64,000 bases of DNA from Deltaproteobacteria bacterium (GTDB lineage: Bacteria; Myxococcota_A; UBA9160; UBA4427). The translations under genes and the position numbers were made by a program. The notes under the pieces were generated by a model, which was not told the origin of the DNA, ran no database searches, and worked only from the letters and a program-made list of their open reading frames with translations. The stretch is from assembly GCA_029261835.1 (NCBI GenBank), contig JAJDAO010000016.1, positions 46,930 through 110,929 of the forward strand, written 5' to 3'. Of the stretch, positions 24,501 to 46,949 are shown piece after piece. Each line of letters opens with the position of its first letter. Within the stretch, counting starts at the first letter, position 1.

Positions 24501-24591
24501 GCTTGCCTCTGAAGAATGATCCGAACAGAGCGGCTGCGAGGGCGAATAGGGATGTCATTGGGAAACTCTAGCGGAAAGATCAGAGCCCAGT

Positions 24592-24613
24592 GAACTCGGC
24601 CCGTGCCGAGTTC
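24592..24613. repeat. Palindrome GAACTCGGC-CCGT-GCCGAGTTC
   Basis: 9-bp perfect inverted repeat with 4-nt spacer. Confidence 0.6.
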
Positions 24614-24675
24614 TGGCCGACAACAGGTAGAGCCGCCCCGGAAACCTGGCCCAATCAAGAGGTGCCGTTGGGATC

Positions 24676-24830
24676 ACTTGTTCCAACTGTCACACTCCTC
24701 GCCCAACCGGTGTCTCAGCTATGGAAACCAGGCGTCTCGCGGGTTGTGGCGCCCAAGCGAGACGAGCATGCACGGCCCCCTGAGCAAGCTACACGACGGC
24801 GATAGTGCCGACCAGAAGCTTGATCGGCCA
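24676..24830 (+). repeat. Direct repeat copy 1: ECF promoter plus vestigial sigma-factor N-terminus
   Basis: Near-identical to 25389-25540; encodes MHGPLSKLHDGDSADQKL, compare MHGPLSKQYDGDSTDQQL of the sigma gene. Confidence 0.85.
24688..24715 (+). promoter_or_regulatory. Putative ECF promoter upstream of NTF2-like gene
   Basis: TGTCACA-N15-GTGTCT, same sequence and spacing as 25401-25428. Confidence 0.6.
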
Positions 24831-24843
24831 AAGGAGAAGAGAA

Positions 24844-25305
24844 ATGCTGACGAAACGCTTTGCGGCGTACGCACAAGCCTTCGAGCGCGCGTATGAGTCG
24901 CGTGACTGGTCCCTGCTGCGAGACTTCCTCACCGAGGACGCGAGCTACGAGGTCCTCGGCCCCGAACGCCTGCGATCGGAGTCGCGGGGCAGAAAGCAGG
25001 TGCTCGAGTTCCTCGAATGGGTCACCGATGCCTTCGACCGGAAGTGCGAAGAACGCAAGACCGTCATGTTCGACCCGCTGGTGGAGATCGATGGCCGGAT
25101 CGAGCTCCACGCCGCGGCGATCTACCGCCTTCCGAGTGGCACGCACTGCCACTCGCACCTCTACGAGACCGCGACATTCGAGGGAGACCGGATCCGGCGG
25201 CTCGTGGACGAGCTGAGTCCCGGGGCGTGCCATGAGATTCTGCTCGCCCTCGACGCGTATCCGGAGCTCTTTCCGCGCTCGCTCAACGGACCCGCGGCCA
25301 GCTGA
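24844..25305 (+). CDS. SnoaL/NTF2-like protein
   Basis: MLTKRFAAYAQAFERAYESRDWSLLRDFLTEDASYEVLGPERL...GRKQVLEFLEWV. Confidence 0.65.
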   Translation: MLTKRFAAYAQAFERAYESRDWSLLRDFLTEDASYEVLGPERLRSESRGRKQVLEFLEWVTDAFDRKCEERKTVMFDPLVEIDGRIELHAAAIYRLPSGTHCHSHLYETATFEGDRIRRLVDELSPGACHEILLALDAYPELFPRSLNGPAAS

Positions 25306-25388
25306 GATTACGCCAAGTGGCTCGTTCGCCGTGCGCCCAGGGGCAAATACCTCCACGAGCGTATCGCCGGCCTCGCGGCGTTGGGATT

Positions 25389-25540
25389 GCTCGGCCCAAC
25401 TGTCACACTCCTTGGCCAAACGGTGTCTAACGTATAGAGACCAGGCGCCTCGTGGAGTTGTGGCGCCCAAGCGAGACGAGCATGCACGGACCCCTGAGCA
25501 AGCAGTACGATGGCGACAGCACCGACCAGCAGCTTGTGCG
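25389..25540 (+). repeat. Direct repeat copy 2: sigma-factor promoter and N-terminal coding region
   Basis: caactgtcacactcct...gtgtct...ccaggcg.ctcg...tggcgcccaagcgagacgagcatgcacgg.cccctgagcaag shared with copy 1. Confidence 0.85.
25401..25428 (+). promoter_or_regulatory. Putative autoregulated ECF promoter
   Basis: TGTCACA-N15-GTGTCT upstream of the sigma factor start. Confidence 0.6.
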
Positions 25541-26378
25541 TGTGGCGCGTGACGGCAGCAGCGATGCCCTCGATGCGCTCGTCCGTCGCCACCAAGGCTT
25601 CGTCTACAGCATCGCCCTGCGCATGCTCTGGGACCCCCAGGACGCCGAGGACGCGACCCAGGAGATTCTCATCAAGATCGTCACCGGCCTGTCGTCTTTT
25701 CGTGGCGAGAGCGCGTTTCGCACCTGGGCATACCGTATCGCCACCAACCACGTCCTCAATTCGAAGCGCAGCCGAGCAGAAAAGACGGTCACCGGCTTCG
25801 ACGACTTTGGGATCAAGATCGACGAGCTGTCGGACCTCGATCTCGCGGGCGAGGTGGCGGCTGAGGCAGAGCGGCGCGTGCTCGCCGAGGAGACCCGAGT
25901 CGCCTGCCTCACCGGCATGCTGCTTTGTCTCGATAGAGCCCAGAGGCTGACGTACATCTTGGGTGAGGTCTTCGAGGTCAGCGATGCGCTCGGCAGCGAG
26001 ATCCTCGGTATCACGCGACAGAACTTCCGCCAACGGCTGGCGCGCTCCCGGCGACAGCTCTACGAGTTCATGCGCGGCAAGTGCGGTCTCGTCAACTCGG
26101 CCAACCCGTGCCGTTGCGCGCGCAAGACTCGAGGCGCCATTCGCGCGGGGATCGTCGATCCAAAAAGCCTCAAGTTCGTCCCCGCCCACGTAACGAGGAT
26201 CGAACAAGACGCCAAGGACCGTTCGCGCGAGTTTCGGCAGGTGGTCGGCGCGGGCTACGCCCACCTGTTCCGCGACCAGAACCTCAAAGAGCCTCCGGAC
26301 CTCGTCCCCAGGCTCCGCAGCATCGTCTCCGACGAGCGCTTCCGCGCGACCCTGGATCTGGACAGCAAGCCTTCGTAG
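25482..26378 (+). CDS. ECF-type RNA polymerase sigma factor with C-terminal Cys extension
   Basis: DALVRRHQGFVYSIALRMLWDPQDAEDATQEILIKIVTGLSSFRGESAFRTWAYRIATNHVLN; extension CGLVNSANPCRCARKT. Confidence 0.85.
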   Translation: MHGPLSKQYDGDSTDQQLVRVARDGSSDALDALVRRHQGFVYSIALRMLWDPQDAEDATQEILIKIVTGLSSFRGESAFRTWAYRIATNHVLNSKRSRAEKTVTGFDDFGIKIDELSDLDLAGEVAAEAERRVLAEETRVACLTGMLLCLDRAQRLTYILGEVFEVSDALGSEILGITRQNFRQRLARSRRQLYEFMRGKCGLVNSANPCRCARKTRGAIRAGIVDPKSLKFVPAHVTRIEQDAKDRSREFRQVVGAGYAHLFRDQNLKEPPDLVPRLRSIVSDERFRATLDLDSKPS

Positions 26379-27411: not shown

Positions 27412-29715
27412 ATGAAGAGGACACCGATCGCTCTCCTGGCCGGCATCTTCTCTCTCTTCCTTCTCGCAGGTTGTGACGGCACCACTGGAGCCGTTGGGTC
27501 AGCGGGCCCCACCGGTGCAACGGGTGCAACGGGCTCAACGGGCGCTACGGGAGGCGTCAATCCGACCACGTCGGTCGAGACCTGTGTGGGCTGCCACGGC
27601 AGTGGCACGGCGGTGCCGGTCGGCGACATTACCACCGTCGGCGACGCGCACTACATCAATACCACTGCCAACGGCCTGATGACGAGCTCGGGATACCGGC
27701 AGCTGAATCTGGCCTTGACGTCCGTCGATGTCACCGGATCAAATGTCATCATCGAATTCACGGCAACGGATGAGCTCGGCGGCACGGTCGCCGATCTCTA
27801 CGCGGCCGACGGGCGCTTCACCATCGCGAAGCTGGTCGCGGGCAGCGGCATCGGAGAACCCAACGATTGGAGCAGCCTGATGACCACGACGGAGGATCCG
27901 GGAAGCGTCGGCACCGGTCCAGGAACCTCGACCATTCAGGCCACCTATGAGCGCTTCACCACCTCCGCCGGCGTGTTCGCATACCTGGGCACCGGCAATT
28001 ATCGCTACACGTCGTCCTTCGATCCGAGCTCGAGTGTTGCAAGCGGAGACACGCTCCGTGTCGCGATCCAGATGTCGGCCTCCGATATCCCCCCTGGCAA
28101 TGGCTGGTGCGACTTCGACGCCAACCTGAGCTCGGCGAACAACTGTACGTCGGCCGTCACGGTGACCAAGGATGTCGTCCAGACCGCCACCTGTAATGGC
28201 TGCCACGGCACGACCACCGACACGCAGCTGGGTATTCATGGTGGCGGGCGCACGGATGTCGAGTACTGCGTCACCTGTCACAACCCGGACTCCACCGACG
28301 CCAATAGCGGCGAGAGCGTGGATATGAAGGTGATGATCCACAAGATCCACCGTGGCTCCTCCCTGAGTCAGTCATACACGATCTGGGGATACGGGGACGC
28401 GGCGCACGACTACTCCAAAGTCAGCTTCACCAAGGAGATCGACAACTGCACCAACTGCCACACGGGTGGAGGAGCGGACGTCGACAACTGGAGCACGCTC
28501 CCCACGATGGCGGCCTGCGGCTCCTGTCATGACGACATCGACTGGACGACCGGTGCGAACCACGCCGGTGGTGGCGCGACCAGCAACGGGTTCTGCGCCA
28601 TCTGCCATCCGCAGGCGGGTGCCCTGGGCGCGGGAGGCGGTCCTCCGTTTCCCGTGGAGACGGTTCACCAGGGGGTGGCGCGAGCCACCGAGGCAGCCCT
28701 CTATGCCGGTGGCTCGAATGGCTACTCAATCGACGCCGTCAGCTTCGATTCCAGCACGGATGTCTTGACCATCGACTACTCGGTGACCAAGAGCGCCACT
28801 GCCATGGATCTGGCTGCCGACTCGGAGTGGACCGATACCTACGCTCTCGGTGGCGGAGGTGCGAGCCGCCTCAATCTCTCAGTGGCCTGGGATACCTCCG
28901 ACTACAACAACAACGGTAGCGGCGCGACACCCGGCAAGGTGGTTGACATCAACGGCCTCGACATCGCGGGGGGTACGGTAACGGCCCAGGGCGGGGGCGT
29001 CTATCGAGTGACGACGACGCTTCCCTCCTCGGCATCGGACACCGTGACGGTCACCATAGACGGCCATCCCGCTGCAGATCTCGATTCGGATGGTACCTAT
29101 TCTGATCGCATTCCGGTGAAGAGTGTATTCCAGGATATCAACATCAACGGCGGACGCGCGGTCGTGGTTGCGCGTCGCGCCATCGTGGATGTGAGCAAGT
29201 GCAACAAGTGCCACGACGCTGCCGGTCAGGGCATTAGCCTCCACGGGAGCAATCGCACCGGCGAGGTCCAGGTGTGCGTCGTGTGTCACAACCCGGACGC
29301 GACGGACATCAATCGCCGTCCGTCGGACCCGACCACGACAGCGGATGGGAAGGTGGAGGAGTCGATCGACATGAAGCGCATGATCCACCAGATCCACAGT
29401 GGCTCCGATCTGGTGAATGGTGTGGTGATCTATGGCTATGGAAGTGCGGAGCACGACTACAGCACGGTCGGTTTCACCGGCAACAGAAAGAACTGTGAGA
29501 CGTGTCACTACGCGGGTACCTACGATACGCTCGACGCAGCGAACTCGTTGGCCTCGACAATCAGCACTGGAACCGATGTGGCCGATCCCGACGACGACCT
29601 GAACATCTCGCCCACCGCGGCAACGTGCTCCTCCTGTCACGACGACGACAAGTCGACGGATCACATGGAGCTGCACGGCGCGTCGTTCAGTGCCTTGGAT
29701 GACGACATCTTGTGA
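27412..29715 (+). CDS. OmcA/MtrC-family decaheme c-type cytochrome lipoprotein
   Basis: Ten CXXCH motifs counted; lipobox LFLLAGC; collagen-like GXY stretch after the Cys. Confidence 0.88.
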   Translation: MKRTPIALLAGIFSLFLLAGCDGTTGAVGSAGPTGATGATGSTGATGGVNPTTSVETCVGCHGSGTAVPVGDITTVGDAHYINTTANGLMTSSGYRQLNLALTSVDVTGSNVIIEFTATDELGGTVADLYAADGRFTIAKLVAGSGIGEPNDWSSLMTTTEDPGSVGTGPGTSTIQATYERFTTSAGVFAYLGTGNYRYTSSFDPSSSVASGDTLRVAIQMSASDIPPGNGWCDFDANLSSANNCTSAVTVTKDVVQTATCNGCHGTTTDTQLGIHGGGRTDVEYCVTCHNPDSTDANSGESVDMKVMIHKIHRGSSLSQSYTIWGYGDAAHDYSKVSFTKEIDNCTNCHTGGGADVDNWSTLPTMAACGSCHDDIDWTTGANHAGGGATSNGFCAICHPQAGALGAGGGPPFPVETVHQGVARATEAALYAGGSNGYSIDAVSFDSSTDVLTIDYSVTKSATAMDLAADSEWTDTYALGGGGASRLNLSVAWDTSDYNNNGSGATPGKVVDINGLDIAGGTVTAQGGGVYRVTTTLPSSASDTVTVTIDGHPAADLDSDGTYSDRIPVKSVFQDININGGRAVVVARRAIVDVSKCNKCHDAAGQGISLHGSNRTGEVQVCVVCHNPDATDINRRPSDPTTTADGKVEESIDMKRMIHQIHSGSDLVNGVVIYGYGSAEHDYSTVGFTGNRKNCETCHYAGTYDTLDAANSLASTISTGTDVADPDDDLNISPTAATCSSCHDDDKSTDHMELHGASFSALDDDIL

Positions 29716-29716
29716 G

Positions 29717-29745
29717 CCTGGTGGTCGGCTCTGCCGACCACCAGG
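29717..29745 (+). terminator. Strong hairpin after the decaheme cytochrome (terminator/attenuator)
   Basis: CCTGGTGGTCGGC-TCT-GCCGACCACCAGG, 13-bp perfect stem followed by TCTTCTTC. Confidence 0.75.
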
Positions 29746-29754
29746 TCTTCTTCG

Positions 29755-29781
29755 GGAGCTGCCCACCTCGTGGGCGGCTCC
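29755..29781 (+). terminator. Second hairpin in the same intergenic region
   Basis: GGAGCTGCCCAC-CTC-GTGGGCGGCTCC, 11 bp paired with one mismatch. Confidence 0.55.
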
Positions 29782-29899
29782 TCAGGAGGCGGCGGCTCAG
29801 GCGGGCCGCCGGGGTTCCTGCTAGAGAAGGACGGGCTAGAAGGACGACGCGGGCGGGCAATCGGGGCGACTTACACCATCACGGAAGGGGGATGAAGGG

Positions 29900-30823
29900 G
29901 TGCGCAGTGTCAGCCGACGCCGAAAGGAGAAGCGTTGGGCAGGTGGTTGGGCGGACTTCGGTGCCCTCTCCTGGCTGGCCATCCCGCTCCTCGGGATACT
30001 CGTTGCGTGCGCGACGACGTGGTCGCCCGCCGAGCCCCGCAGCTACCGCCGCACAGCGACGGTGCCAGGCGCCAGCGAGCTCGTGGGCCTTGATGAGTGC
30101 GAAACATGCCACGAAGGCGACGACGGGCCCGCTGTGGTTCCGGCCTATCACAACGACTGCGAGAGCTGTCACGGATCCGGCGAGCTCCACATCGATAGCG
30201 AGGAGGTGGCGGAGATCCGCTTCCCGGCCAGCGCAGATTGTCTCGTTTGCCACGAGACCGGCCGCTCCACGCAGATGGCTTGGACGACATCGGAGCACCA
30301 ACGCACCGGCGTGATGTGCTCGGACTGCCACGAGCTGCACAGCCGCGAGCCGCGGCACCTGCGCGCCGTGGCTCCGGTGCAGGATGTACTGCTGCGCCAG
30401 GCAAACGATACGACGAAGCTCTGCGGCAGCTGCCACTACGAGATTACTTCGCGACTCAACCTCTCCTCGCATCACCCCATCCGGGAGGGGATGATCGGCT
30501 GTGCGGATTGCCATCGACCGCACGAGAACCGGCGCGTAACGCTGGGAGCGCGCACCCAGCTCTGTACCGGCTGTCACGAGGACCACGCCGGCCCCTGGAT
30601 CTACGAGCACGCTCCGGCGGCAGAGGACTGCGGCTACTGCCACGTGCCGCACGGCTCGAGCAGCTATAGCTTGCTCGAGACGAGCCAGCCGGGCGTGTGT
30701 ATCTCATGCCACACGCTGGCGGAGCAGTTTGTCACACATGAGCCGTTGGCCTCCATGACACGCTGTACCGACTGTCACGAGGCGATTCACGGATCGTATG
30801 CTGACTCGCACCTGAGGAGGTGA
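29900..30823 (+). CDS. DmsE/MtrA-like decaheme c-type cytochrome
   Basis: Ten CXXCH motifs (CETCH CESCH CLVCH CSDCH CGSCH CADCH CTGCH CGYCH CISCH CTDCH); LGILVAC lipobox-like. Confidence 0.87.
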   Translation: MRSVSRRRKEKRWAGGWADFGALSWLAIPLLGILVACATTWSPAEPRSYRRTATVPGASELVGLDECETCHEGDDGPAVVPAYHNDCESCHGSGELHIDSEEVAEIRFPASADCLVCHETGRSTQMAWTTSEHQRTGVMCSDCHELHSREPRHLRAVAPVQDVLLRQANDTTKLCGSCHYEITSRLNLSSHHPIREGMIGCADCHRPHENRRVTLGARTQLCTGCHEDHAGPWIYEHAPAAEDCGYCHVPHGSSSYSLLETSQPGVCISCHTLAEQFVTHEPLASMTRCTDCHEAIHGSYADSHLRR

Positions 30824-30833
30824 GACTGGAACC

Positions 30834-32996
30834 ATGGTCCACCGAGCACACTTCGGCATTGGCCTGCTCGTTCCGCTTATGCTGGCCGGCTCGGTCGCAG
30901 CAGATGAGGAATTCGAGCTGCTCTGGTCCGCGACGCTCCTGGGAGAGTTCAATGTCATCGCCTCGGAGGAAGCGAACAACGACGTCACCGGCTTCTTCGA
31001 CCAGTACGAGTTCATACCGAACAAGAGCGACGCGGCGCCGTTTCAGCTCGGTGTGCGTGACGCGTCGCTGGACTGGATCGGCGGCGATGGCGCGCCACGG
31101 CTGCAATTCCGTCTGCAGAGCCCCAGCTCGAATCTCGCTATAACCGGCTCCCAGACCGGCGAGCCCTTTCTGAATCAGCGGGCCCTTCTACTGGGGCGAT
31201 TCGGTGGCATCCGCTTCGACGTTTCCTACGATCGCTTCCGAACGCAGGCGCTGCGGTTCTTTCCGAACATAGCCGGCACGCCCTTCACGCACGTGGATGT
31301 GACGGATCCAAGCGACCGCTTCTTCCGAGACCGCACCGGGTTTGACAGCGAGATCCGTCTCAGGCCCCACGAGCTCTTCGAGAGCCCGAAGCGAGGCGTT
31401 GACTGGCTCGCGCCAGAGCTCGCCTTGCGCGGTGGCTATCAGATTCGTGAAGGTAAGCGGCAGGTCGGCTTCCTGCTCAAGACCGCCAACGTCAACGACC
31501 CGGTGTCCTTCACCGGACACCCCGATCAAGACGTCGGTGAGGTGGGCGTGGGTCTACTGCTCGCGCCCGGCGGCCTCTTCACGATGACCTTCGATTTCGA
31601 CCACAAGCGCTTTCGCGAGAGCGCCCCCGCCACGTTCGAGAGCACTCTCGGCACGGCATCCGCCTCGGACTCGCTGCCGATCAGCTTCATCCCAGACAGC
31701 GATCGATCCACCAGCAGCATGCGGCTCCACAGCCGCATCGGTGAGCGTGCCGTGCTCGAAGCGGGCTTCCAGGTCTCGTGGCTCGAGCAGGTGGGCGACC
31801 TGACCCCGGTCCAGCAGGCTGCGGGCTTGCGCGAGAACGAACTCCTCTTCTACTCGACCAATATGGCGGCCGACGTTGTGTTGGGCGGTGGCGTTTCGGC
31901 GAACGCCTTTTTTAAGTACGACCAGCGCGACAACGACATCCAGCGGGACACGGCTGGCTTTGGCCGCACGAACTGGAGCCAGGTCGACTTCTTCTTCGAG
32001 CGATGGCGTCGCATTGTCGGCGGTGCCGAGGTCGTCTATCAGCTGCGGGGGACCAACCAGCTCGCTTTGGGTGGGCGCCTGGAGTGGGTCGACCGCGAGC
32101 TGGACTTCGCAGTGCCGAATTCACAGGGCGGGTGGGTCCGGCCGCTAAACGCTCTGGTGGCGAACGAGACACAGATGTACACGGTGTACGGGCGTGCGAG
32201 CCTTCGCCCCGCCACGGGCCTGCGCGTTCGCGGAGAGATCGGCTATCGCGAGGCTCCAAAGACCGGCTATGTCGTCGATCTCGACGACTATGTCTATGGG
32301 AAGCTGCGGGCATCGTATGCGCTGCAGTTCTGGCGGCCCGTCATGCTCTCTGGTTTTGGGCAGGGGGGCTTTGGCAAGAACCGAGACTTCAGCATGCAAG
32401 GGGGAACCGCAGCCCAGCCCATCGGGAATCCCGTGGGCCTCGACTTCGAGAGGTACGACTTTCGCTGGGGCCTGACAATCACGACTCCGCTGCGGGACGA
32501 CATGACCCTCTTCGCTTCGCTCTTTCACGCACTTGATGTGCAGGACTACAATCTCGTGCGCTCGGACGTGGCGCGCTACCTCCAGGAGATCGTCCCGAAC
32601 AGCTTCTGGGTGGCGGGCCCTGTCGAGTACCGCACGGACGACGTGAGCCTGATCCTGGGCACGCACGTGCAGCTCGCCGAACGGACGGACGCCGGTCTTT
32701 CCTACAGCTTCACACACGTCGAGGCGAGCTACCGCTCGAGCGCGCCCTCTGCCGCGATCCGGCGCATCCAGGGCTCCAGCATCGTCGACGCCGACATCCA
32801 CGGGCTGGATCTGGAGTTCGGACATCGACTGAGGGATGGGCTGCGCATGCTCGTGGGCTATCGGTTCCAGCTCTATGACGACAGCGCTCCCGTGCCCACC
32901 GGGACGGGGAGCGTCGTGACGCCCCTGGATCCCTCGACCTACCAGCACACCTTGACCCTCGGTGTCACCCTGACCAGCGACCTGCTGGCACGCTAA
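30834..32996 (+). CDS. MtrB/PioB-like outer-membrane beta-barrel
   Basis: 720 aa; signal peptide, alternating beta-barrel pattern, position directly after the MtrA-like gene. Confidence 0.8.
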   Translation: MVHRAHFGIGLLVPLMLAGSVAADEEFELLWSATLLGEFNVIASEEANNDVTGFFDQYEFIPNKSDAAPFQLGVRDASLDWIGGDGAPRLQFRLQSPSSNLAITGSQTGEPFLNQRALLLGRFGGIRFDVSYDRFRTQALRFFPNIAGTPFTHVDVTDPSDRFFRDRTGFDSEIRLRPHELFESPKRGVDWLAPELALRGGYQIREGKRQVGFLLKTANVNDPVSFTGHPDQDVGEVGVGLLLAPGGLFTMTFDFDHKRFRESAPATFESTLGTASASDSLPISFIPDSDRSTSSMRLHSRIGERAVLEAGFQVSWLEQVGDLTPVQQAAGLRENELLFYSTNMAADVVLGGGVSANAFFKYDQRDNDIQRDTAGFGRTNWSQVDFFFERWRRIVGGAEVVYQLRGTNQLALGGRLEWVDRELDFAVPNSQGGWVRPLNALVANETQMYTVYGRASLRPATGLRVRGEIGYREAPKTGYVVDLDDYVYGKLRASYALQFWRPVMLSGFGQGGFGKNRDFSMQGGTAAQPIGNPVGLDFERYDFRWGLTITTPLRDDMTLFASLFHALDVQDYNLVRSDVARYLQEIVPNSFWVAGPVEYRTDDVSLILGTHVQLAERTDAGLSYSFTHVEASYRSSAPSAAIRRIQGSSIVDADIHGLDLEFGHRLRDGLRMLVGYRFQLYDDSAPVPTGTGSVVTPLDPSTYQHTLTLGVTLTSDLLAR

Positions 32997-33111
32997 GGCC
33001 GCCGCCTCGCGCCGCCCCATCCCCTATCGCCAATGGACGGCGAGGCGCATCGGATGGGCGGAGAATCCCCTAGACCCGGGAGATGCTGCGGTTCGGCCAC
33101 GCGCGGGCGCG

Positions 33112-35265
33112 ATGAGTGGACTCGCCGGGCGCTTCTCTTCCCGGAGGCGGTGGCTATGGTGTTGTCGGGGGAGGGCGATGGCTTTGCTGCGCAGTAGCGG
33201 TCGTGATGACCAAGGCTTGGCCTTGAACGACGGCGATACGATCGCCGTCACCGGCGGTGGTCCGTCTGGAAGCTTCTTCGCCATCCGAGTGCTGCGGGAG
33301 GCCCGGAGAGCCGGACGACACGTCAAAGTGGTCATCATCGAGAAAGGAAAGAGCATAGGACGCGACGGTATCTCGCGGCATGGGAGAGGGTGCAACCACT
33401 GTGCAGGAGGCATCTCCCCCCGGTTGAACGACGTGCTCGAACAGAGTGGGTTGGCGATCCCAGGGACCGTCATTCGGGGAGAGGTGGACACCATTTGGGT
33501 CCAGGGGCTGTGGAAGAACTTCCCATTCAAGGTTCCGGAAGACATGAGAATGTACTCGGTGTTGAGGGGGTCGTTCCCTCAGCGCGCGGGTAGTGAATTC
33601 GGGGGATTCGATGGTTTTCTGCTGAGAGAAGCCGTCAAGGAAGGCGCCGAAGTCGTTTCGGGAGAGGTTCTCGGAATCGACTACTCCGACACGGGAATGC
33701 CCCGGCTCGAGATGAACCCGGCATATGAAGCGAGCAAGACCATTGAGGCGAGCTTCGTCGCGGTCTCGACCGGGATCAACATCCAGCGTGGCTCGGATTA
33801 TGGGTCGAACCCGCTGATCTGTTGCCTGCGAAGAATCAACCCACGGTTCAGCCCTGCCAGGACCAGGAAGGCGCTGATATTCGAGCTCGAGGTTGGTCAG
33901 GACTATCTCAAGAAGCACATGAACCGGGAGATCTACTTCGTCGAGTACGGCTCGAAGGAGCTGTCACTGGAGCACATCGCCCTGGTTCCCAAAAGAGAGC
34001 TTCTTACCGTGGCGTTGATCGGCCGCTCCATTGATGAGGCCGAGTTGCCAAAGGATGCCAGGAGGATCGTGCGTGAGGTGCTCGCACTGCCACACATGAG
34101 GCGGATTCTGCCGAGTATGGAACCCGCTCCGCTAGCCTGCATCTGTGCTCCCAGAATGGCGGTGAGGGCGGCGAGGCATCCCTATGCCGACCGGGTGGCA
34201 TTGATCGGTGATGCGGTCGGCTCGAGGCTCAACAAGGATGGTCTCTACTCGGCGTATAGAACCGCCACGCAGCTCGCTGACACCGTGTTGCATCACGGCA
34301 TCGATGAGAGGAGCTTGGAGACGAGCTACGGACCGGCGGTCGAGTGGCTGGCACGAGACAACCGATATGGGGAGCTCATGTTTGGCGTCAGCAGGCTCAC
34401 TTTCCGCACGCCGGTGGTGAGTCGCATCGTCTATCAGGCCTTTGCCACCGAGTTGAAGGTTCGAGACAAGGATCGACGTCCGCTGGGGACGGTCCTCTGG
34501 AAGATGGCAAGCGGGACTTCCGATTACCGTGAGGTCCTGAAGGGCATGTCAAGTCTTCCCGTACTGCGGTCGTTCTTGGTGGGCGGGGTGCTCGTGACGT
34601 TGCGCAATACGCTGACGGAGATGTTGTTCGGGGTGAAGTGGGGTGAGTACGGCAGATACCCCACTGTGATCATGAAGGAGAAGAGGGGCGACGTGAAGCG
34701 AGCCATCGAGCAGAGGTTCGGAATCGAGATCGGCGAGTCACCCGAGTTCGAGAGGATGTACAAGATCAAGATCAGAGCATCGCCCCGGCAAGTGTTCGAC
34801 GAGCTGGGGAAGTTCGGCGACGAGCGGCGGAACTACTTGAAGCTGAGGTCACTCGAGATCAAGCGGATATCGGGTTTGCCGAACGAAGTGGGGTCGGTCA
34901 TCGAGTACAACGCCAAGCTCATCAGCATGACGCTGAGAATGCGGCTGACCAGCGTCGTCCCGGACAGGGCCTTGCTGTATGCGGTGGATGAGAAGTTCGC
35001 AGACAGGGGCAAGCTCGTATTCGATATCGAGAGGACGAAAGACGGGAACTGGGGTCTGGTGCTATACGCCGCGTTCGACTTCAAGAGGGGCAAGAGGCTG
35101 ATAGGCCGCATCTATTGGAGTCTGTTCCGGATATTCTTTCCGGCGTTCTTGCACGACATATTCTGGAACCACGCGCTCTGCCGCATCAAGGAAGACGTCG
35201 AGGACATAGCGGAAGAGGACGTGCTTCCTGCCAGGAGCGGCGCAGCGGTCTGTCGGCAAGGGTGA
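33112..35265 (+). CDS. Geranylgeranyl-reductase-like FAD oxidoreductase with C-terminal START/SRPBCC-like domain
   Basis: IAVTGGGPSGSFFAIRVLR, GRGCNHCAGGISP, YADRVALIGDAVGSRLNKDGLYSAYRTA; ~170 aa extension YKIKIRASPRQVFDELGKFGDERRNYLKLRS... Confidence 0.7.
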   Translation: MSGLAGRFSSRRRWLWCCRGRAMALLRSSGRDDQGLALNDGDTIAVTGGGPSGSFFAIRVLREARRAGRHVKVVIIEKGKSIGRDGISRHGRGCNHCAGGISPRLNDVLEQSGLAIPGTVIRGEVDTIWVQGLWKNFPFKVPEDMRMYSVLRGSFPQRAGSEFGGFDGFLLREAVKEGAEVVSGEVLGIDYSDTGMPRLEMNPAYEASKTIEASFVAVSTGINIQRGSDYGSNPLICCLRRINPRFSPARTRKALIFELEVGQDYLKKHMNREIYFVEYGSKELSLEHIALVPKRELLTVALIGRSIDEAELPKDARRIVREVLALPHMRRILPSMEPAPLACICAPRMAVRAARHPYADRVALIGDAVGSRLNKDGLYSAYRTATQLADTVLHHGIDERSLETSYGPAVEWLARDNRYGELMFGVSRLTFRTPVVSRIVYQAFATELKVRDKDRRPLGTVLWKMASGTSDYREVLKGMSSLPVLRSFLVGGVLVTLRNTLTEMLFGVKWGEYGRYPTVIMKEKRGDVKRAIEQRFGIEIGESPEFERMYKIKIRASPRQVFDELGKFGDERRNYLKLRSLEIKRISGLPNEVGSVIEYNAKLISMTLRMRLTSVVPDRALLYAVDEKFADRGKLVFDIERTKDGNWGLVLYAAFDFKRGKRLIGRIYWSLFRIFFPAFLHDIFWNHALCRIKEDVEDIAEEDVLPARSGAAVCRQG

Positions 35266-35492
35266 GTCCGGCTCAGCCCCGCTGTCTGGACAGCCCCGAG
35301 TTGTGCATCACGGCGGTCACGCCGGACGAGGCCATGGTGCCGGCTGCCAAGGGAGCTGGCGTGCCTCCGCCTGCCCTCGGGTGCGTCCTCGCAATAAGGT
35401 TGCACTCTACTATGAATGTATGATACAAGGATATGGGGCGGCGGCAACGACTTTCGAGGTCGGTCCCAGGGGCGGTGAGAAGAGGCCAGGTT

Positions 35493-37946
35493 GTGAATCG
35501 CGAGCGCATCGGTGAGGGATTCGAGCAGTGGGGCGACCTCATGGTCCGCCATCGCTGGTGGGTCATCGGCGTCATGTTGGGCTTGGCGGTGGGTGTGGGT
35601 GCCGCGCTCCCGAGCATACAGGTCGACAACTCCGTTGAGGCCTTCCTCCACGAGGATGATCCCGACCTGATCCACTACAACGACTTTCGCGACCGATTCG
35701 GCCGCGATGACGTAACGGTGATCGCGATCCGGCCGCGCGAGATCTTCGATCTGGCATTCCTCGAGGAGCTCCGAGCGCTGCACGAAGACCTCGAGCACGA
35801 GGTGCCGTACCTCGACGACGTGACAAGCCTCGTCAACGCGCGAGCAACCTACGGTCAGGCGGACGAGCTCATCGTCGAAGACCTGATGGCTGAGTGGCCG
35901 CGCAACGAGGCCGACCTCGCTGTGCTCGAAGAGCGGGTCTTCGCCAATCCGCTCTACCTCGACACGCTGGTTTCCCGCGATGGGCGCTTCACCAGCGTCA
36001 TTCTCGAGCCCGCGGTCTACTCCCCGGTGACCCGGGAGGATGAGGCGCTGGCGGGCTTCGAAGAGAATGGAGCGGTGGAATCGAATGGCTCGGAGGAGCA
36101 GCAGTACCTGACGGATGTCGAGAGCGGCGACATGGTGAAGGCGGTGCGCCGGGTGATGCACCGCTATCGGGATGCGGATACCGAGATGGTTCTCGCGGGC
36201 ACGGCGGTCGTGGAGGAGCGCCTGGAGGACGAGATGCAGGCCGATCTCGCCCGTTTTCTGGGCCTCTCGATGCTTGTCATCGTGGCCGTGCTCTACGCCG
36301 TCTTTCGGCGTGCTTCGGGCGTGGTGCTCCCGCTTCTCACGGTCGTTCTGTCTCTCACGACCACGTTGGGCGCCATGGCGCTTCTCGGGATTTCTCTATC
36401 GCTCACCACCGAGATTCTTCCTTCTTTCCTGCTGACCATCGGTGTGTGCTACTCGGTACACATCATTGCGATCTTCTATCAGGGGCTCGATAGAGGCCTG
36501 GCTCGCGAGCAGGCCATCCGTCACGCGCTGGGCCACTCGGGACTGGCCGTCCTGATGACCGGCTTGACGACCGCCGGAGGCCTCGCCTCATTTGCCTGGG
36601 CCGAGGTTGCTCCGGTGGCTGAGCTCGGAATCGTGGGGCCCCTCGGCGTGACCCTCGCCATGATCTTCGCTCTGGTGCTATTGCCCGCATTGCTGGCGGT
36701 CGTTCCGCTACGCAGGCCGGAAGGCCGATCACGGCGGCAGAAGGGCGCGCTCCTGAGCGATGCCGTCGTCGCCTGCGGTGCCTTCTCGGCGCGACGTCCG
36801 TGGCTCGTGCTCGGCGGTGCGGCTCTCCTCCTCGTGCTGGCCGCCGCGGGCGCCTCCCGCTTGCGTTTTGCCAATGACTACTTCCTGTGGTTTCCGGACG
36901 ATGAGCCGCTCGTCCAGGCCACGGCATTGGTCGATCGCGAGTTCAAGGGTGTGGTGACGCTCGAGGCCATCATCGAGACCGGCGTGGAGAACGGTCTGCA
37001 CGATCCAAGTCTGTTGCGGAGGCTGGAGGCCATCGGAGAGGCGAACGTTTCCTTTCGGCAAGGTGAGCTCTTCATTGGCAAGACCGTTTCCCTCGCCGAT
37101 ATCCTGAAGGAGACGCATCAGGCCCTGAACGAGAATCGGGCGGAGCACTACAGCATCCCCGACGACCCCCGGCTGGTGGCGCAGGAGCTGCTCCTCTTCG
37201 AGAACGGTGGTGCGGACGATCTCGAAGAACTCGTCGATTCGCAGTTCAGCACGGCGCGCATCAGCATGAAGCTCCCGTGGACAGACTGGATGCTCTACCC
37301 GAAGTTCCTCGAGAGGATGCGCCAGCATCTAACGGCGATTCTGGGAGAGGATGTGCCATTCCATCTCACCGGCTTCTGCACCGTTATGGCTCGTGCGGCC
37401 GAGTCTTTCATCACGACGATGGCGCAGTCCTACCTGCTCGCTCTCTTGATCATTACGCCACTCATGATCGTCCTGCTGGGAAGCCTCGGCCGCGGTCTGC
37501 TCAGCATGGTGCCGAATCTGGCGCCGATCCTGCTCACCTTGGGGCTGATGGGGTGGCTCGAAGTGCCCCTCGATATGTCGACGACCCTCATCGGTGGCAT
37601 CATCATCGGTCTTGCGGTCGACGACACCATCCACTTCATGGACCGCTTCAACCGCTACTTCGAGCAGACTCGTGACGCCCAGCGTGCCGTGCGAGAGACA
37701 CTCGAGACCACCGGCACCGCGATGCTCTTCACCTCCGTGGTGCTGGCAGCGGGGTTCCTGGTATTCTGCTTCGCCTACATGCAGAACGTCGTCGTTTTCG
37801 GCTTGCTCTGCGCCTTCGCCACAGTGGCTGCATTCTTCGCGGACGTAACGCTGGCGCCGGCCCTGATGGTCTTGGCTACGAGGCGGAAACGCGAGGCGAG
37901 CGCGGAGCCCCTGCTATCGCCGGGAGGGCGGGAGCAGATAGGATAG
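35493..37946 (+). CDS. RND/MMPL-family transporter
   Basis: VDNSVEAFLHEDDPDLIHYNDFRDRFGRDD...GIIIGLAVDDTIHFMDRFNRYFEQTRDAQRAVRETLETTGTAMLFTSVVLAAGF. Confidence 0.9.
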   Translation: MNRERIGEGFEQWGDLMVRHRWWVIGVMLGLAVGVGAALPSIQVDNSVEAFLHEDDPDLIHYNDFRDRFGRDDVTVIAIRPREIFDLAFLEELRALHEDLEHEVPYLDDVTSLVNARATYGQADELIVEDLMAEWPRNEADLAVLEERVFANPLYLDTLVSRDGRFTSVILEPAVYSPVTREDEALAGFEENGAVESNGSEEQQYLTDVESGDMVKAVRRVMHRYRDADTEMVLAGTAVVEERLEDEMQADLARFLGLSMLVIVAVLYAVFRRASGVVLPLLTVVLSLTTTLGAMALLGISLSLTTEILPSFLLTIGVCYSVHIIAIFYQGLDRGLAREQAIRHALGHSGLAVLMTGLTTAGGLASFAWAEVAPVAELGIVGPLGVTLAMIFALVLLPALLAVVPLRRPEGRSRRQKGALLSDAVVACGAFSARRPWLVLGGAALLLVLAAAGASRLRFANDYFLWFPDDEPLVQATALVDREFKGVVTLEAIIETGVENGLHDPSLLRRLEAIGEANVSFRQGELFIGKTVSLADILKETHQALNENRAEHYSIPDDPRLVAQELLLFENGGADDLEELVDSQFSTARISMKLPWTDWMLYPKFLERMRQHLTAILGEDVPFHLTGFCTVMARAAESFITTMAQSYLLALLIITPLMIVLLGSLGRGLLSMVPNLAPILLTLGLMGWLEVPLDMSTTLIGGIIIGLAVDDTIHFMDRFNRYFEQTRDAQRAVRETLETTGTAMLFTSVVLAAGFLVFCFAYMQNVVVFGLLCAFATVAAFFADVTLAPALMVLATRRKREASAEPLLSPGGREQIG

Positions 37947-38050
37947 CCGCGGTGGCTCATCTCTGTGCCATCTCCGGCCGTTGACCGAGCGCCGAAGATC
38001 GAGTATTCGCGTGATGCATCCACAGCCGAGGGCAAGCGGAGGACGCCAGG

Positions 38051-38506
38051 ATGCCCAGTCCAGCAAAGTTTCGGGAGGTCGTTAATCAGCTCAGTCAGCG
38101 CTTCAATGCCTTGCAGCGCGGCGAGAAGTGCTGCTTCGGCGTGACGATGTCGCAGTGTATGACGCTCGAACTCCTGCATCAGCGAGGGCGCTGCACCGTG
38201 CGAGAGCTGGCAGAGGGTCTGGCGCTGGACACCAGCACCGTAACCCGGGTCGTGGACGTACTGGTGCGAGATGGGCTCGTCCGACGGGCCCGGGACGAGA
38301 AGCGGGATCGTCGGCGCGTCTTCGTGTCGCTCAGCGGGTCCGGCCGCCGACTGGCAAAGAAGCTGGAGGTCAGCGCCGACGAGTACTGCGCGCGGATTCT
38401 AGAGCGCATTCCGCAAGAGCGTCGCGCGGAAGTGTTCGATGCGTTGCTCCTGGTGGTGAGCGCCATCGACGAGATGCCCGAAGATCTGCCCGATTCCTGT
38501 AGCTAG
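38051..38506 (+). CDS. MarR-family regulator with N-terminal CC...C motif
   Basis: EKCCFGVTMSQCMTLELLHQRGRCTVRELAEGLALDTSTVTRVVDVLVRDGLVRRARDEKRDRRRVFVSLS. Confidence 0.88.
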   Translation: MPSPAKFREVVNQLSQRFNALQRGEKCCFGVTMSQCMTLELLHQRGRCTVRELAEGLALDTSTVTRVVDVLVRDGLVRRARDEKRDRRRVFVSLSGSGRRLAKKLEVSADEYCARILERIPQERRAEVFDALLLVVSAIDEMPEDLPDSCS

Positions 38507-38535
38507 CTAGAGCAACGCTTCCGAGGGAGGTTCGC

Positions 38536-41376
38536 ATGCGGCGATTGTCTCGTAGAGAGTTTCTCGGGGCGGGCGCCGGTGCTGCGACGCTCGTTCTGGG
38601 ACTCGACCGACTGACCTGGGCACTGCCCGCGCGGGCAAAGGCTGCGGGCGGGCCGGCCCCTGGTTACCGAGACTACCGGGATGTCTATCGCCAGCGCTGG
38701 CGTTGGGATCGCGTGGTGCGCGGCACGCACACCAATGCGAACTGCGTGGCCGCCTGCGCCTGGAACCTCTACGTGCGCGATGGGATCGTGTGGCGCGAGG
38801 AGCAGGCGGCGCCCTATGCCGCGTCGAATACGAGCCTGCCAGATTGGAATCCGCGGGGCTGCCAGAAGGGTGCCTGCTATAGCGATCTGATGCTCGGACC
38901 ATCGCGGGTGACGCATCCGCTGCGCAGGGTAGAGGCTCGTGGCTCGAACAGCTGGAAGCGTATCTCGTGGGATCAGGCGCTGGACGAGATTGCTAGCAGT
39001 TTGGTCGACGTACTCGTGCGTCGCGGCGGCGAGGGCGCGGTCTGCGAGATGGGGGGGCACCTCGATTTCGGTCCGACTGCCGCGGCTGCCTGGCGGTTCT
39101 TCGGGCAGATCGGGGTTCCCATCACAGACGGTGCCGCCCTGACGGGCGACCTCCCGGTGGGGGGGACGATTACGCTGGGGCTTCCCTTTACGGACGGGAG
39201 CTCGGATGACTGGTTTCGCTCGGACTGCGTCGTGCTCTGGGCCTTCAATCCGTCGGTCACCCGTATTCCGGACGCACACTATCTACAGGAAGCGCGTTAT
39301 CGCGGTGCCCGCGTCGTCGCGATTACGCCCGACTTCAATGCAAGCGCCAGCCACGCTGATCTGTGGATATCGCCGCGACCCGGCAGCGATGCAGCACTGG
39401 CGCTGGCGGCTTGTCGAGTCGTGATTGACGAGGGTCTGTACGCAGCCGACTACCTGCGCGAGCAGACCGATCTTCCCTTCCTGGTACGCCGCGAGACACA
39501 GCGCTTCCTGCGGCATTCGGATGTCGTCGAAGGGGGGAGCGACGAACGCTTTGCGCTGTGGGACGAAGCCAGCGAAGCACTGCTCTGGGCGCCCGGCTCG
39601 GCCGGGAGCGAAGAGAAGACGCTCGCGCTTCCGGAAGGTGCGCGGCCGGCACTCGAGACGCAGCGGACCGTGCGGCTTGCTTCGGGAGAGAGCGTTTCGG
39701 TCCACACGGTCTTCTCAGCGCTGCGCGAGGGGCTGGCGCGCTTCGGTCCCGAAGAGGCGGCATCCACTACGGGTGTGGCCGCCCCGGTGATCCGAAGGTT
39801 CGCTCGTGATTTCGCGCGCGCGCCGTCGGCACTGATCCTCTCCCAATTCGGCATGTGCAAGAACTACCACTCGGACCTCATTCAGCGCTCCCAGATTCTG
39901 CTTGCATCGCTGACCGGAAAGCTCGGACGTGCGGGCAGCGGATGGCGCTCGGGGGGCTTCGTTGCGTTGGATGGGCTGGGGCTGGTGGCGATGCAGGACA
40001 AGCTCGGCATCCCCCACCTGCTGTGGACCGCGGCCCGCTCCTACTTCGACCCCAACGCCGTGAGGGGGCAGTTCGAATCGATGTTCATCCCCGCCGCACT
40101 CTTCTACGCGGTGCACGGTGGCCTCGGAGAGATTCAAGGGGCGGCGGAGCACGGAGATCCTCTGCTTCCCAAGGGATCCGCACCCTATCTGGAGGAGGCG
40201 CTGGCGAAGAAGCACTTCCCCATGAGTCCACCGCCGGGCTCCGATCCGCCGGAGATCATCTTCTCGCAGTGCGGCAACATCCTGCGGAGCAGCAAGCTGG
40301 GAGAGCGCGTCCGCGATTCGCTCTTCGCCCAGGCCAAGCTCATCGTCGACATCACGCTGCGCATGAGCGAGACCGGTCGACATGCCGATATCCTGCTTCC
40401 CGCCGCCGGCTGGTACGAGAAGATCGGCCTCAAGTACATCCCGGCGACCGTTCCCTTTGCAACGCTGGGCGATCGCGCCGTGGCGCCCCTGGGCGAGGCC
40501 ATGCCGGAGTGGAAGATCTACTCGCATCTGGCCGAGCGTGTTGCGGCGGAGGCCGAGCGGCGCGGTGTGTCCAGCGTGCAGGGCTTTCGAGGCCAGGCGT
40601 GCGAGATTGCCGAGCTCGGCGATCGCTTCAGTGATGGCGGTCGCTTTGGTGCCGACGGCGATGAGGAAGTGCTGCGCTTCATTCTGAACATCTCGCCCGC
40701 GACCAGCGGTGTCACGATCGAAGAGCTGCGAGAGCAGGGCGGTGCCCTGCGACTTCCGAGCCTCGGAGGCCAGGGCGAGAGCGCGGGCATCTACTCGGAC
40801 TACAGTCCCGAGGAGCCGGTGGCGCCGCTGCGCGACTTCGTAGAGAAGAAGCAGCCGTATCCAACCCTCACCGGTCGCCAGCAGTTCTACATCGATCATC
40901 CCTGGTTCCTCGAGCTCGGCGAGGCGCTCCCCACGCACAAGGACCCACCCGCGGCCGGCGGCGACTTTCCCTTGACCCTGACCAGTGCCCACACACGCTG
41001 GAGCATCCACGCGGTCTGGCGTGATCACGCGCTGATGTTGCGGCTGCAACGAGGCGAACCCGCGGTGCTCTTGAACGATGGCGACGCCCGCGCGCGGGGA
41101 ATCGGTGATCACGACCTGGTACACGTCTCGAACGATCTCGCGAGCTTCACGGCTCACGCGAAGGTCGCCGGGGCGATTCGGCCGGGGCAGGTGCAGCTCT
41201 ACCACGCCTGGGAGCCCTACCAGTTTCGTGGTGGCAGGAGCCACCAGGCAGTGTCACCAAGCCCCATGAAGGTGACACAGCTCGTCGGTGACTACGGGCA
41301 GCTCCACTGGGGCTTCGCGCGCTACGAGCCCAACCAGGTCAACCGCGACACGCGCGTCGAGGTCGCGCGGGCGTGA
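38536..41376 (+). CDS. Tat-exported molybdopterin oxidoreductase, DMSO reductase superfamily (type II-like)
   Basis: Tat signal RRLSRREFLGAGAGAATL; RGTHTNANCVAACAWNLYVRDGIVWREEQ...PDWNPRGCQKGACYS; HADILLPAAGWYEK; C-terminal molydopterin-dinucleotide-binding-like region. Confidence 0.85.
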   Translation: MRRLSRREFLGAGAGAATLVLGLDRLTWALPARAKAAGGPAPGYRDYRDVYRQRWRWDRVVRGTHTNANCVAACAWNLYVRDGIVWREEQAAPYAASNTSLPDWNPRGCQKGACYSDLMLGPSRVTHPLRRVEARGSNSWKRISWDQALDEIASSLVDVLVRRGGEGAVCEMGGHLDFGPTAAAAWRFFGQIGVPITDGAALTGDLPVGGTITLGLPFTDGSSDDWFRSDCVVLWAFNPSVTRIPDAHYLQEARYRGARVVAITPDFNASASHADLWISPRPGSDAALALAACRVVIDEGLYAADYLREQTDLPFLVRRETQRFLRHSDVVEGGSDERFALWDEASEALLWAPGSAGSEEKTLALPEGARPALETQRTVRLASGESVSVHTVFSALREGLARFGPEEAASTTGVAAPVIRRFARDFARAPSALILSQFGMCKNYHSDLIQRSQILLASLTGKLGRAGSGWRSGGFVALDGLGLVAMQDKLGIPHLLWTAARSYFDPNAVRGQFESMFIPAALFYAVHGGLGEIQGAAEHGDPLLPKGSAPYLEEALAKKHFPMSPPPGSDPPEIIFSQCGNILRSSKLGERVRDSLFAQAKLIVDITLRMSETGRHADILLPAAGWYEKIGLKYIPATVPFATLGDRAVAPLGEAMPEWKIYSHLAERVAAEAERRGVSSVQGFRGQACEIAELGDRFSDGGRFGADGDEEVLRFILNISPATSGVTIEELREQGGALRLPSLGGQGESAGIYSDYSPEEPVAPLRDFVEKKQPYPTLTGRQQFYIDHPWFLELGEALPTHKDPPAAGGDFPLTLTSAHTRWSIHAVWRDHALMLRLQRGEPAVLLNDGDARARGIGDHDLVHVSNDLASFTAHAKVAGAIRPGQVQLYHAWEPYQFRGGRSHQAVSPSPMKVTQLVGDYGQLHWGFARYEPNQVNRDTRVEVARA

Positions 41377-41519: not shown

Positions 41520-43583
41520 CTATGAGGCGCGGGTTTCACTCCGCGGCGGATCCAGCACTTCGCGGATACGCCGCAACAGCTTCCCCGAGGTGAACGGTTT
41601 CTCGAGGAACTCGACGCCTTCTTCGAGCACACCGTGATGGCTGATGACGTTGTCCGTGTAGCCGGACACATAGAGCACTCTCGTCTCCCGGCCCGTCGCC
41701 AGGAGCGCGTCGGCCAACTGGCGTCCGTTCATGCCGGGCATGATGACGTCGGTGAGCAACAGCTGAATGCGACCGACGTGTTCCGTCGCCATTCGAAGCG
41801 CGCTCTCGGCCGATTCGGCAGCCAGGACGGTGTAGCCACCCGCTTCCAGTGTTCGGCAAGTTGCCTCTCGCACATTCCGATCATCTTCACACATAAGGAT
41901 CGTCTCGTGTCCTCCGCGGCTCAGTTCCCTTGTGCCGCTCGGGACTTCTGTCGCAGCGACCCCCACCGCAGCGGGGAGATAGACCCTGAAGGTTGTGCCC
42001 TGGCCCGGCTCACTGTAGACCGTGATGTGCCCGCCCGACTGCCGCACGATTCCGTGGACCATGGCCAGTCCCAGTCCGGTCCCCTCGCCCAGTTGTTTGG
42101 TGGTGTAGAACGGCTCGAAGGCGCGTCGACGCGTTTCCGTATCCATGCCCATGCCGGTGTCGCTGACGGCAACCATCACGTGCTGCCCGGCTCGCGCTTC
42201 GGCGTGCAGGGCGACGTAGTCAGCGTCCAGGGTCGCGTTGTTCGTCTCGAGCGTCAGCGCACCTCCCTCCGGCATCGCGTCACGGGCGTTGACGACGAGA
42301 TTCACGACGACCTGCTCGAGCTGCGCTGCGTCGGCGCAGACGCACGACACGTCGGACGCGCAGACCATCTCGAGCTTGATGTCCTCGCGGATCAGTGGCC
42401 GCAGCATCTTCTCCATGTCGGTCAATAGCCGATTCAGGTCGAGGACGACGGGGCTGAACACCTGTCGCCGGCTGAAGGCCAGGAGTTGGCGCGTCAACGT
42501 CGCCGCCCGCTGCGCGGCGTGATCGATCTGCGCCAGATCGGACAACAGCTGGTAGTCTCTCGGCAGATTCTTCTCCATGCCGTTCCGAACGAGTTCGGCG
42601 TTGCCGAGAATCGCGGTGAGGATGTTGTTGAAGTCATGCGCGACGCCGCCGGCAAGTTGTCCGATCGCCTCCATCTTCTGCGCCTGACGGAGCTGGGCCT
42701 CTAGCTCGACCTCGCGTGTGACATCGCGCTTGACTGACACAAAGTTGGTGATCTCGCCGGATAGGTTGCGGACCGGTGAGATGGTCGCATCCTGCTCGTA
42801 GAGCGTACCGTCCTTCCTCTTGTTGATGATGTGACCGGTCCACACCTCTCCGCGCGTAATCGTCTTCCACAGCTCCTCATAGAACTGTGCAGTCTGACGC
42901 CCACTCTTGAGTATGCGTGGATTCTGTCCGACAGCTTCTTCGCGCGCATAGCCGGAGATGCGCTCGAAGGCGGGATTCACGTACTGAATCGTGCCCTCCC
43001 GATCGGTGATCAGAATGCCTTCGGCGGATTGTTCGATCGCCGTGGCCAGCCGTGTGCGCTCCTCTAGGGCTCGTTCGCGCTCGACCATTTGCGTCTTCAG
43101 CTCCCGATTGGCGGCGACCAGATCCGCCGTACGCTCCAGGACGCGGTTTTCGAGTTCCCGGTTCTGCCGTTCGAGTGCCGCCTGCAAGCGACGCAACGTC
43201 AGGTGAATCTTGACCCTTGCCACCACCTCATTGGGTTCGAATGGCTTGGTGATGTAATCCACGCCGCCGGCCTCGAAGCCATCGATCTTGCTCACGGATT
43301 CGTTCAGGGCGCTGACGAAGATCACGGGGACTTCGCGGCTCCCCTCGTGGGCCTTCAGCCGACGACAGACTTCGAATCCGTCCATCCCCGGCATCTTCAC
43401 GTCCAGCACGACCAGATCCGGTGGATCGACACGCACTGCGTCCAAGGCCAGCTGACCGTCCGTGGTCGGCCGCACGCGGTGACCGGCGTCGGACAGGATT
43501 CTTGCCAACAAGTGGAGATTCTCCGGGATGTCGTCGACGATCAGAATGTCGCCCGGCGAGTCGGATGTGCGTTCGGTGCTCAC
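41520..43583 (-). CDS. Hybrid histidine kinase (REC-PAS-HisKA-HATPase-REC)
   Basis: ILIVDDIPENLHLL...; VAHDFNNILTAILGN; GTGLGLAMVHGIV; C-terminal ILMCEDDRNVREATCRTLEAGGYTVL. GTG start overlaps upstream TGA as GTGA. Confidence 0.88.
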   Translation of the reverse strand: MSTERTSDSPGDILIVDDIPENLHLLARILSDAGHRVRPTTDGQLALDAVRVDPPDLVVLDVKMPGMDGFEVCRRLKAHEGSREVPVIFVSALNESVSKIDGFEAGGVDYITKPFEPNEVVARVKIHLTLRRLQAALERQNRELENRVLERTADLVAANRELKTQMVERERALEERTRLATAIEQSAEGILITDREGTIQYVNPAFERISGYAREEAVGQNPRILKSGRQTAQFYEELWKTITRGEVWTGHIINKRKDGTLYEQDATISPVRNLSGEITNFVSVKRDVTREVELEAQLRQAQKMEAIGQLAGGVAHDFNNILTAILGNAELVRNGMEKNLPRDYQLLSDLAQIDHAAQRAATLTRQLLAFSRRQVFSPVVLDLNRLLTDMEKMLRPLIREDIKLEMVCASDVSCVCADAAQLEQVVVNLVVNARDAMPEGGALTLETNNATLDADYVALHAEARAGQHVMVAVSDTGMGMDTETRRRAFEPFYTTKQLGEGTGLGLAMVHGIVRQSGGHITVYSEPGQGTTFRVYLPAAVGVAATEVPSGTRELSRGGHETILMCEDDRNVREATCRTLEAGGYTVLAAESAESALRMATEHVGRIQLLLTDVIMPGMNGRQLADALLATGRETRVLYVSGYTDNVISHHGVLEEGVEFLEKPFTSGKLLRRIREVLDPPRSETRAS

Positions 43584-46160: not shown

Positions 46161-46279
46161 GGTAGGACTCCTTCCTAGCTGTTCTAAGAAAGCATGCCGC
46201 ACGGCGGTGCCGCGCTGGAAAAGGAATTCGCCCGCGCTCGCGCGTCGTTCCGCGCGAGGCAGACGCGTCGTTTGTCGCC

Positions 46280-46906: not shown

Positions 46907-46949
46907 GACTTGATCTCCGTTTCTCGTACCGACAGCGACGCGACGCCGG

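Follow-up and report, generated by a model that had tools for sequence, protein, structure and literature searches.

An mtrCAB-type gene cluster adjoining genes for a predicted EbdA/S25DH-like molybdenum alpha subunit, a MarR regulator and an MMPL transporter

Introduction

Electron conduits of the MtrCAB type are known from Shewanella, where the Mtr hemes span potentials of about 0 to −400 mV (PMC7198977). The mtrCAB genes are known to be mobile, and their neighbors vary (PMC8805035). The ethylbenzene dehydrogenase (EbDH) of Aromatoleum has a heme b with a potential of +256 mV and depends on acceptors of high potential (PMC8840923). Sterolibacterium denitrificans, which has steroid C25 dehydrogenase (S25DH), carries eight alpha subunit genes and fewer beta and gamma genes, and the latter are shared among the alphas (PMC6016249, PMC6153880).

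We have analyzed a stretch of 64,000 nucleotides of a deltaproteobacterial genome (the window), in which an mtrCAB-like cluster and a molybdenum alpha subunit of this kind lie on the same strand. Seven genes had initially been annotated as one specialized extracellular or periplasmic redox system. We find that the locus as a whole is probably best explained as two units lying side by side, mtrC-mtrA-mtrB (27412-32996) and MMPL-MarR-alpha (35433-41376).

The seven genes

All seven genes of the initial annotation are present on the + strand between 27412 and 41376, separated by intergenic gaps of no more than 184 bp. The features are as follows.

27412..29715, + strand: OmcA/MtrC-family decaheme outer-membrane cytochrome (mtrC), lipoprotein-like; TIGR03507, 10 CXXCH, PDB matches
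29716..29799, + strand: two strong hairpins in the mtrC/mtrA gap; folding z = −6.1, calculated for 29700-29800
29900..30823, + strand: MtrA-like decaheme cytochrome of DmsE/GSU2203 type; 10 CXXCH, PDB match to MtrA
30834..32996, + strand: barrel-like protein at the place of MtrB; low-scoring matches to TIGR03509 and GSU2204, gene order
33112..35265, + strand: FAD-binding geranylgeranyl-reductase-like protein with an extra C-terminal domain; weak FAD-type matches
35417..35427, no strand: palindrome TGTATGATACA, candidate MarR operator, just 5′ of the MMPL start
35433..37946, + strand: MMPL/HAE3-type RND transporter; PF03176 at 124 bits, HAE3- and HpnN-like
38051..38506, + strand: MarR-type regulator; PF01047
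38536..41376, + strand: Tat-exported, EbdA/S25DH-like molybdenum alpha subunit; TIGR03479 at 871 bits, PDB match to EbdA, tree position, conserved residues

Co-transcription of the seven genes is possible from this arrangement. Scans for promoters and terminators gave a yield no higher than chance. On the 5′ side of mtrC (22164-26378) lie genes for an STT3/AglB-like oligosaccharyltransferase and then SnoaL-like and ECF-sigma-like proteins, and just 3′ of the alpha gene, on the opposite strand (41520-47065), are two hybrid histidine kinases and a MEDS-domain sensor.

The predicted mtrCAB conduit

The first three genes encode a predicted conduit of the known MtrCAB kind. The MtrC-like protein has 767 amino acids, 10 CXXCH motifs and a signal ending in LLAGC that is lipoprotein-like. 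It scores 422 bits against TIGR03507 (cut-off 209), as expected of the OmcA/MtrC-family surface decaheme of an MtrCAB system, and is the sole match above the cut-off within its own genome; its matches in the PDB are MtrF, OmcA and MtrC. The second decaheme protein also has 10 CXXCH, and its one PDB match is MtrA (6r2q_A, 1.9e-21), in keeping with the periplasmic or barrel-embedded decaheme of the complex. NCBIfam places it in the DmsE/GSU2203 type with scores under the cut-offs. When the two sequences were shuffled, at most one and two CXXCH were obtained for the MtrC-like and MtrA-like proteins respectively, against 10 in each real protein. The barrel-like protein matches the MtrB/PioB model TIGR03509 weakly (E = 0.0056); its orthologues reach E = 2e-4 with that model at best, and 5e-11 with the GSU2204 family. 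A single-sequence structure prediction of this protein carried no confidence (pLDDT 29). The MtrCAB-like electron conduit of the initial annotation is supported. No CymA/NapC-type gene for a periplasmic electron partner adjoins mtrCAB in the window.

Between mtrC and mtrA, one hairpin has a perfect stem of 13 bp (29717-29745) and the other a stem of 12 bp (29755-29781). At the equivalent position in another genome of the class (G079) there is a strong hairpin of different sequence.

MtrC was sought in 91 genomes of the class, comprising its own and 90 others. Seven of the 91 have a match at E < 1e-30 and six have one above the TIGR03507 cut-off. Of the 90 other genomes, six carry an mtrCAB locus, whole or in part. 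Homologues of mtrC, mtrA and mtrB occur together, in the C-A-B order, in G004, G013 and G079. A contig of G081 breaks off within mtrB, which follows mtrC and mtrA there; a second G081 locus and that of G082 have mtrC only, and in G056 mtrC lies at a contig end. The MtrA homologues directly 3′ of mtrC in G004, G013, G079 and G081 are 52-62% identical to that of the window, and a barrel homologue follows mtrA directly in the first three, while in G081 the contig stops before the barrel gene is complete. The readable mtrC stretches of these six genomes, several of them partial, contain no homologue of the FAD, MMPL or MarR genes. In G013 a NapC/NirT tetraheme gene and a 7-heme DmsE-like gene adjoin mtrB.

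The G079 locus (L249, G079:C180, 3202-13666) encodes MtrCAB proteins 58-62% identical to those of the window, and lies 2.2 kb from an EbdA-like alpha. That alpha belongs to a different subfamily, is on the opposite strand and adjoins a TetR gene. EbdA-like alphas are present in three of the seven MtrC-bearing genomes, and G004, G013, G056 and G082 have none; given that alphas are common in the group, no association of MtrC with alpha is seen across the genomes.

A second multiheme cluster was observed on another contig (L078, G000:C93, 12273-19431), with genes for proteins having 11, 5 and 5 CXXCH and MtrC-domain-like matches. The contig begins with an alpha gene and also carries an MMPL gene.

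The molybdenum alpha subunit

The last gene of the cluster encodes a molybdoenzyme of 946 amino acids. It begins with a Tat-like sequence, RRLSRREFLGAG, as expected for an EbdA/S25DH-like alpha subunit, so that the Tat export proposed in the initial annotation holds; Tat-type starts are also found in most paralogues. The model that it fits best is TIGR03479, for type II DMSO-reductase alphas (E = 1e-261), which covers nearly the full protein. The score of 871 bits is under the curated cut-off of 985, as are the scores of all 27 alphas of this genome. Against the EbdA equivalog NF042978 it scores 527 bits, far under the cut-off of 2000, and so does not qualify as EbdA proper. Because both scores lie below their cut-offs, the substrate and even the reaction are left unfixed. 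Membership of DmsEFAB was also rejected, with a score of 161 bits against the 778 required by the DmsA model TIGR02166, and no DmsB or Fe-S beta subunit in the cluster.

Among the PDB matches, that to EbdA (2ivf) runs over the full length as a single stretch (residues 5 to 945). PcrA gives the best score, but in two stretches. Asp223 of EbdA, a ligand of the molybdenum, corresponds to Asp205 of the window protein, and EbdA Lys450 to Lys442. The lysine is not exclusive to EbdA, as ClrA also has Lys at this position, while PcrA and NarG have His. The FS0 residues H65, C70, C74 and C109 are invariant in the aligned set, and there is a His at the position of EbdA His192. Both the Asp ligand and the FS0 His/Cys motif of EbdA/S25DH-like alphas are thus present.

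In a tree of 78 rows, from which labelled S25dA1-8, CmdA, AhyA, DdhA and SerA are absent, the window alpha falls in a clade of 16 rows with a support of 99, drawn mostly from MAGs labelled Myxococcota or Binatota. This clade adjoins others that hold loci of a Sterolibacterium MAG. The window alpha lies outside the PcrA/NarG/Haloferax branch; ClrA and NarG are on long branches and their placement is unsure. Judged by its sequence, the protein is an ethylbenzene/steroid-C25-dehydrogenase-like alpha subunit. The initial annotation had suggested that the substrate might be lipophilic. This is in keeping with the known hydroxylases of the group, which act on lipophilic substrates, and by analogy the window enzyme may do so too.

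The absence of a nearby Fe-S beta subunit was correctly noted in the initial annotation for the cluster itself, which has neither a beta nor a gamma gene adjoining the alpha, but it does not extend to the genome. Elsewhere, four betas (full matches) and two gammas stand against 27 distinct EbdA/S25DH-like alphas, four of which are cut by contig ends. These are counts from a genome search in an assembly with a completeness of about 95%, from which some beta or gamma genes could be absent. The alpha therefore looks alone because alphas outnumber betas by 27 to 4. The 27 are distributed over contigs C3, C16, C28, C32, C33, C47, C55, C61, C68, C69, C72, C73, C80, C88 and C93, and include several tandem pairs. 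A paralogue 67% identical to the window alpha adjoins an alpha of the L036 type, an arrangement also found in G014. There, an orthologue of 65% identity precedes another alpha gene, MobB, a gamma (EB_dh, TIGR03477) and a beta (TIGR03478, 533 bits, above the cut-off of 481). By analogy with S. denitrificans, we infer that the alphas of this genome share beta and gamma subunits encoded elsewhere.

The MMPL, MarR and FAD-like genes

A contig of 3.8 kb from another MAG (L148, 1-3779, Glo_18) carries the end of a MarR gene, an alpha and the start of an MMPL gene in succession. Compared with the window, the MarR is 60% identical over its last 60 amino acids, the alpha 67%, and the MMPL protein 54% over its first 197 amino acids. 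Since the three recur together, we take MMPL-MarR-alpha to be, probably, a working unit. The contig is short, and a conduit farther out could be missed. The link between the molybdoenzyme and the MarR and RND/MMPL genes drawn by the initial annotation thus seems to hold, on the strength of one other contig. A general association of MMPL genes with alphas was considered and dropped, as it was seen in two of 20 alpha regions and one of 20 controls.

The MarR protein has six cysteines (27, 28, 36, 48, 113 and 150). It had been called Cys-type; the cysteines are there, but the label is loose. Cys113 and Cys150 are kept in the L148 homologue. The palindrome TGTATGATACA has a single match in the window, where 0.13 would be expected at up to one mismatch for a pattern that was picked post hoc, and it was sought on L148 and not found. 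It is tentatively a possible MarR operator.

The FAD-like protein has weak N-terminal similarity to FAD/geranylgeranyl reductases and no Pfam match in its last 188 amino acids. Searches of the PDB and of plasmids returned no matches for it, and its single-sequence structure prediction was without confidence (pLDDT 31). Among the 91 genomes of the class only its own copy and one partial match of 32% were found. The gene is probably a lineage-specific addition, outside both conserved units.

One system or two units

Three observations lead to the reading of two units: mtrCAB recurs without the FAD, MMPL and MarR genes; none of 108 other alpha-bearing loci (partly overlapping) has MtrC, MtrA or MtrB homologues nearby; and MarR-alpha-MMPL is found on L148. 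The initial annotation had itself named co-occurrence in relatives and the phylogeny of the molybdoenzyme as checks on its single redox system, and both go largely against it. Orthologues of the alpha, 62-68% identical, are present in 11 genomes, none of which has an MtrC above the cut-off, and the enzyme groups with EbdA/S25DH-like alphas, its G014 orthologue being encoded together with beta, EB_dh gamma and MobB.

A single system, in which the alpha oxidizes a lipophilic substrate and the electrons leave through MtrA, MtrB and MtrC while MMPL and MarR handle the substrate, would suit the single strand and close spacing of the genes. The proximity of MtrCAB and an alpha in G079 also speaks for it. 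Estimated from alpha density, the chance of an alpha within 5.5 kb of MtrCAB is about 4.5% in the genome of the window and 3.7% in G079, figures that are weak evidence as they were computed after the adjacency was known, for a finding chosen for that adjacency. With its alpha of another subfamily, on the other strand and beside TetR, G079 makes a weak case for a link between conduit and alpha. Against a single system, MtrC occurs in four genomes that lack alphas, and the distribution of the alpha in relatives is as given above. The heme b of characterized EbDH lies above the Mtr window of potential, and hence transfer from the alpha complex directly to MtrA would be uphill if the window proteins behave like their relatives. 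We therefore regard a single system as very unlikely. That an EbdA/S25DH-type C–H hydroxylase feeds MtrCAB either directly or via an unlinked carrier, so that anaerobic oxidation of a steroid, terpenoid or hydrocarbon is coupled to an extracellular acceptor, appears less probable still.

The molybdoenzyme could alternatively be a terminal reductase that receives electrons from periplasmic cytochromes and acts on an oxyanion (chlorate, selenate or another) or an organic oxide. The type II group also includes ClrA, PcrA, SerA and NarG, the top PDB score is that of PcrA, and ClrA shares the lysine at EbdA 450. The one-stretch alignment is with EbdA, however, the tree places the window alpha outside the PcrA/NarG/Haloferax branch (with the reservation noted for ClrA), and the gene of an orthologue lies with one for an EB_dh gamma, so this role is more doubtful again. 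The lowest probability goes to the alpha being a redundant copy with little function of its own, left beside mtrCAB by rearrangement. The 67% identical paralogue in an arrangement shared with G014 would fit such a history, but the open frame is full, the ligand residues are kept, and MarR and MMPL partners are found on L148 as well.

Discussion

If the locus comprises two units, mtrCAB would move electrons between carriers in the periplasm and the cell exterior. The second unit would make one of the 27 EbdA/S25DH-like catalytic subunits of this genome. The alpha would be loaded with the molybdenum cofactor, combined with beta and gamma subunits from other loci and exported by the Tat system, and would hydroxylate a lipophilic substrate such as an alkyl-aromatic compound or the side chain of a terpenoid or steroid, using water. 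Electrons would leave the complex by way of its Fe-S clusters and then heme b, and a c-type cytochrome of high potential would accept them. The MMPL protein might move either the substrate or the product, and MarR might de-repress the MMPL-MarR-alpha unit when its ligand is present. MarR-alpha-MMPL thus offers a testable unit of regulation and transport for one particular alpha.

An adjoining respiratory conduit and molybdoenzyme do not necessarily form one pathway, and least so where there are 27 such enzymes. The claim that the operon-like arrangement invites is a tempting one, and on testing it here we found it weakly grounded. More striking than the gene cluster is the 27-copy alpha set itself, which is larger than that of S. 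denitrificans, the largest that we found described. It points to an uncultured lineage, whose relatives are deposited as Myxococcota, and a limited search of the literature on steroid- and hydrocarbon-dehydrogenase genes in MAGs gave no account of it.

The window conduit resembles MtrCAB of Shewanella (6r2q) and the GSU2203/GSU2204-type proteins of Geobacter in its mtrC-mtrA-mtrB order, two decahemes and barrel-like partner. It differs from these in the weak fit of its barrel to the MtrB model and in lacking an adjoining CymA/NapC-type gene, although one exists in G013. With DmsEFAB of Shewanella the locus shares a decaheme, a barrel and a nearby molybdoenzyme, but here the enzyme is EbdA-like rather than DmsA-like and there is no DmsB. 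Compared with EbdABC (2ivf), the alpha aligns over its full length and keeps the equivalents of Asp223 and Lys450 and a His at the His192 position, whereas it falls short of the equivalog cut-off, its FS0 spacing differs and beta and gamma genes do not adjoin it. A parallel in gene complement is S25DH of S. denitrificans, likewise built on a Tat-exported type II molybdenum alpha with the Lys450-type residue and with several alphas against fewer beta and gamma genes (PMC6016249). In the present genome there are 27 alphas in place of eight, and no beta or gamma gene adjoins the window alpha.
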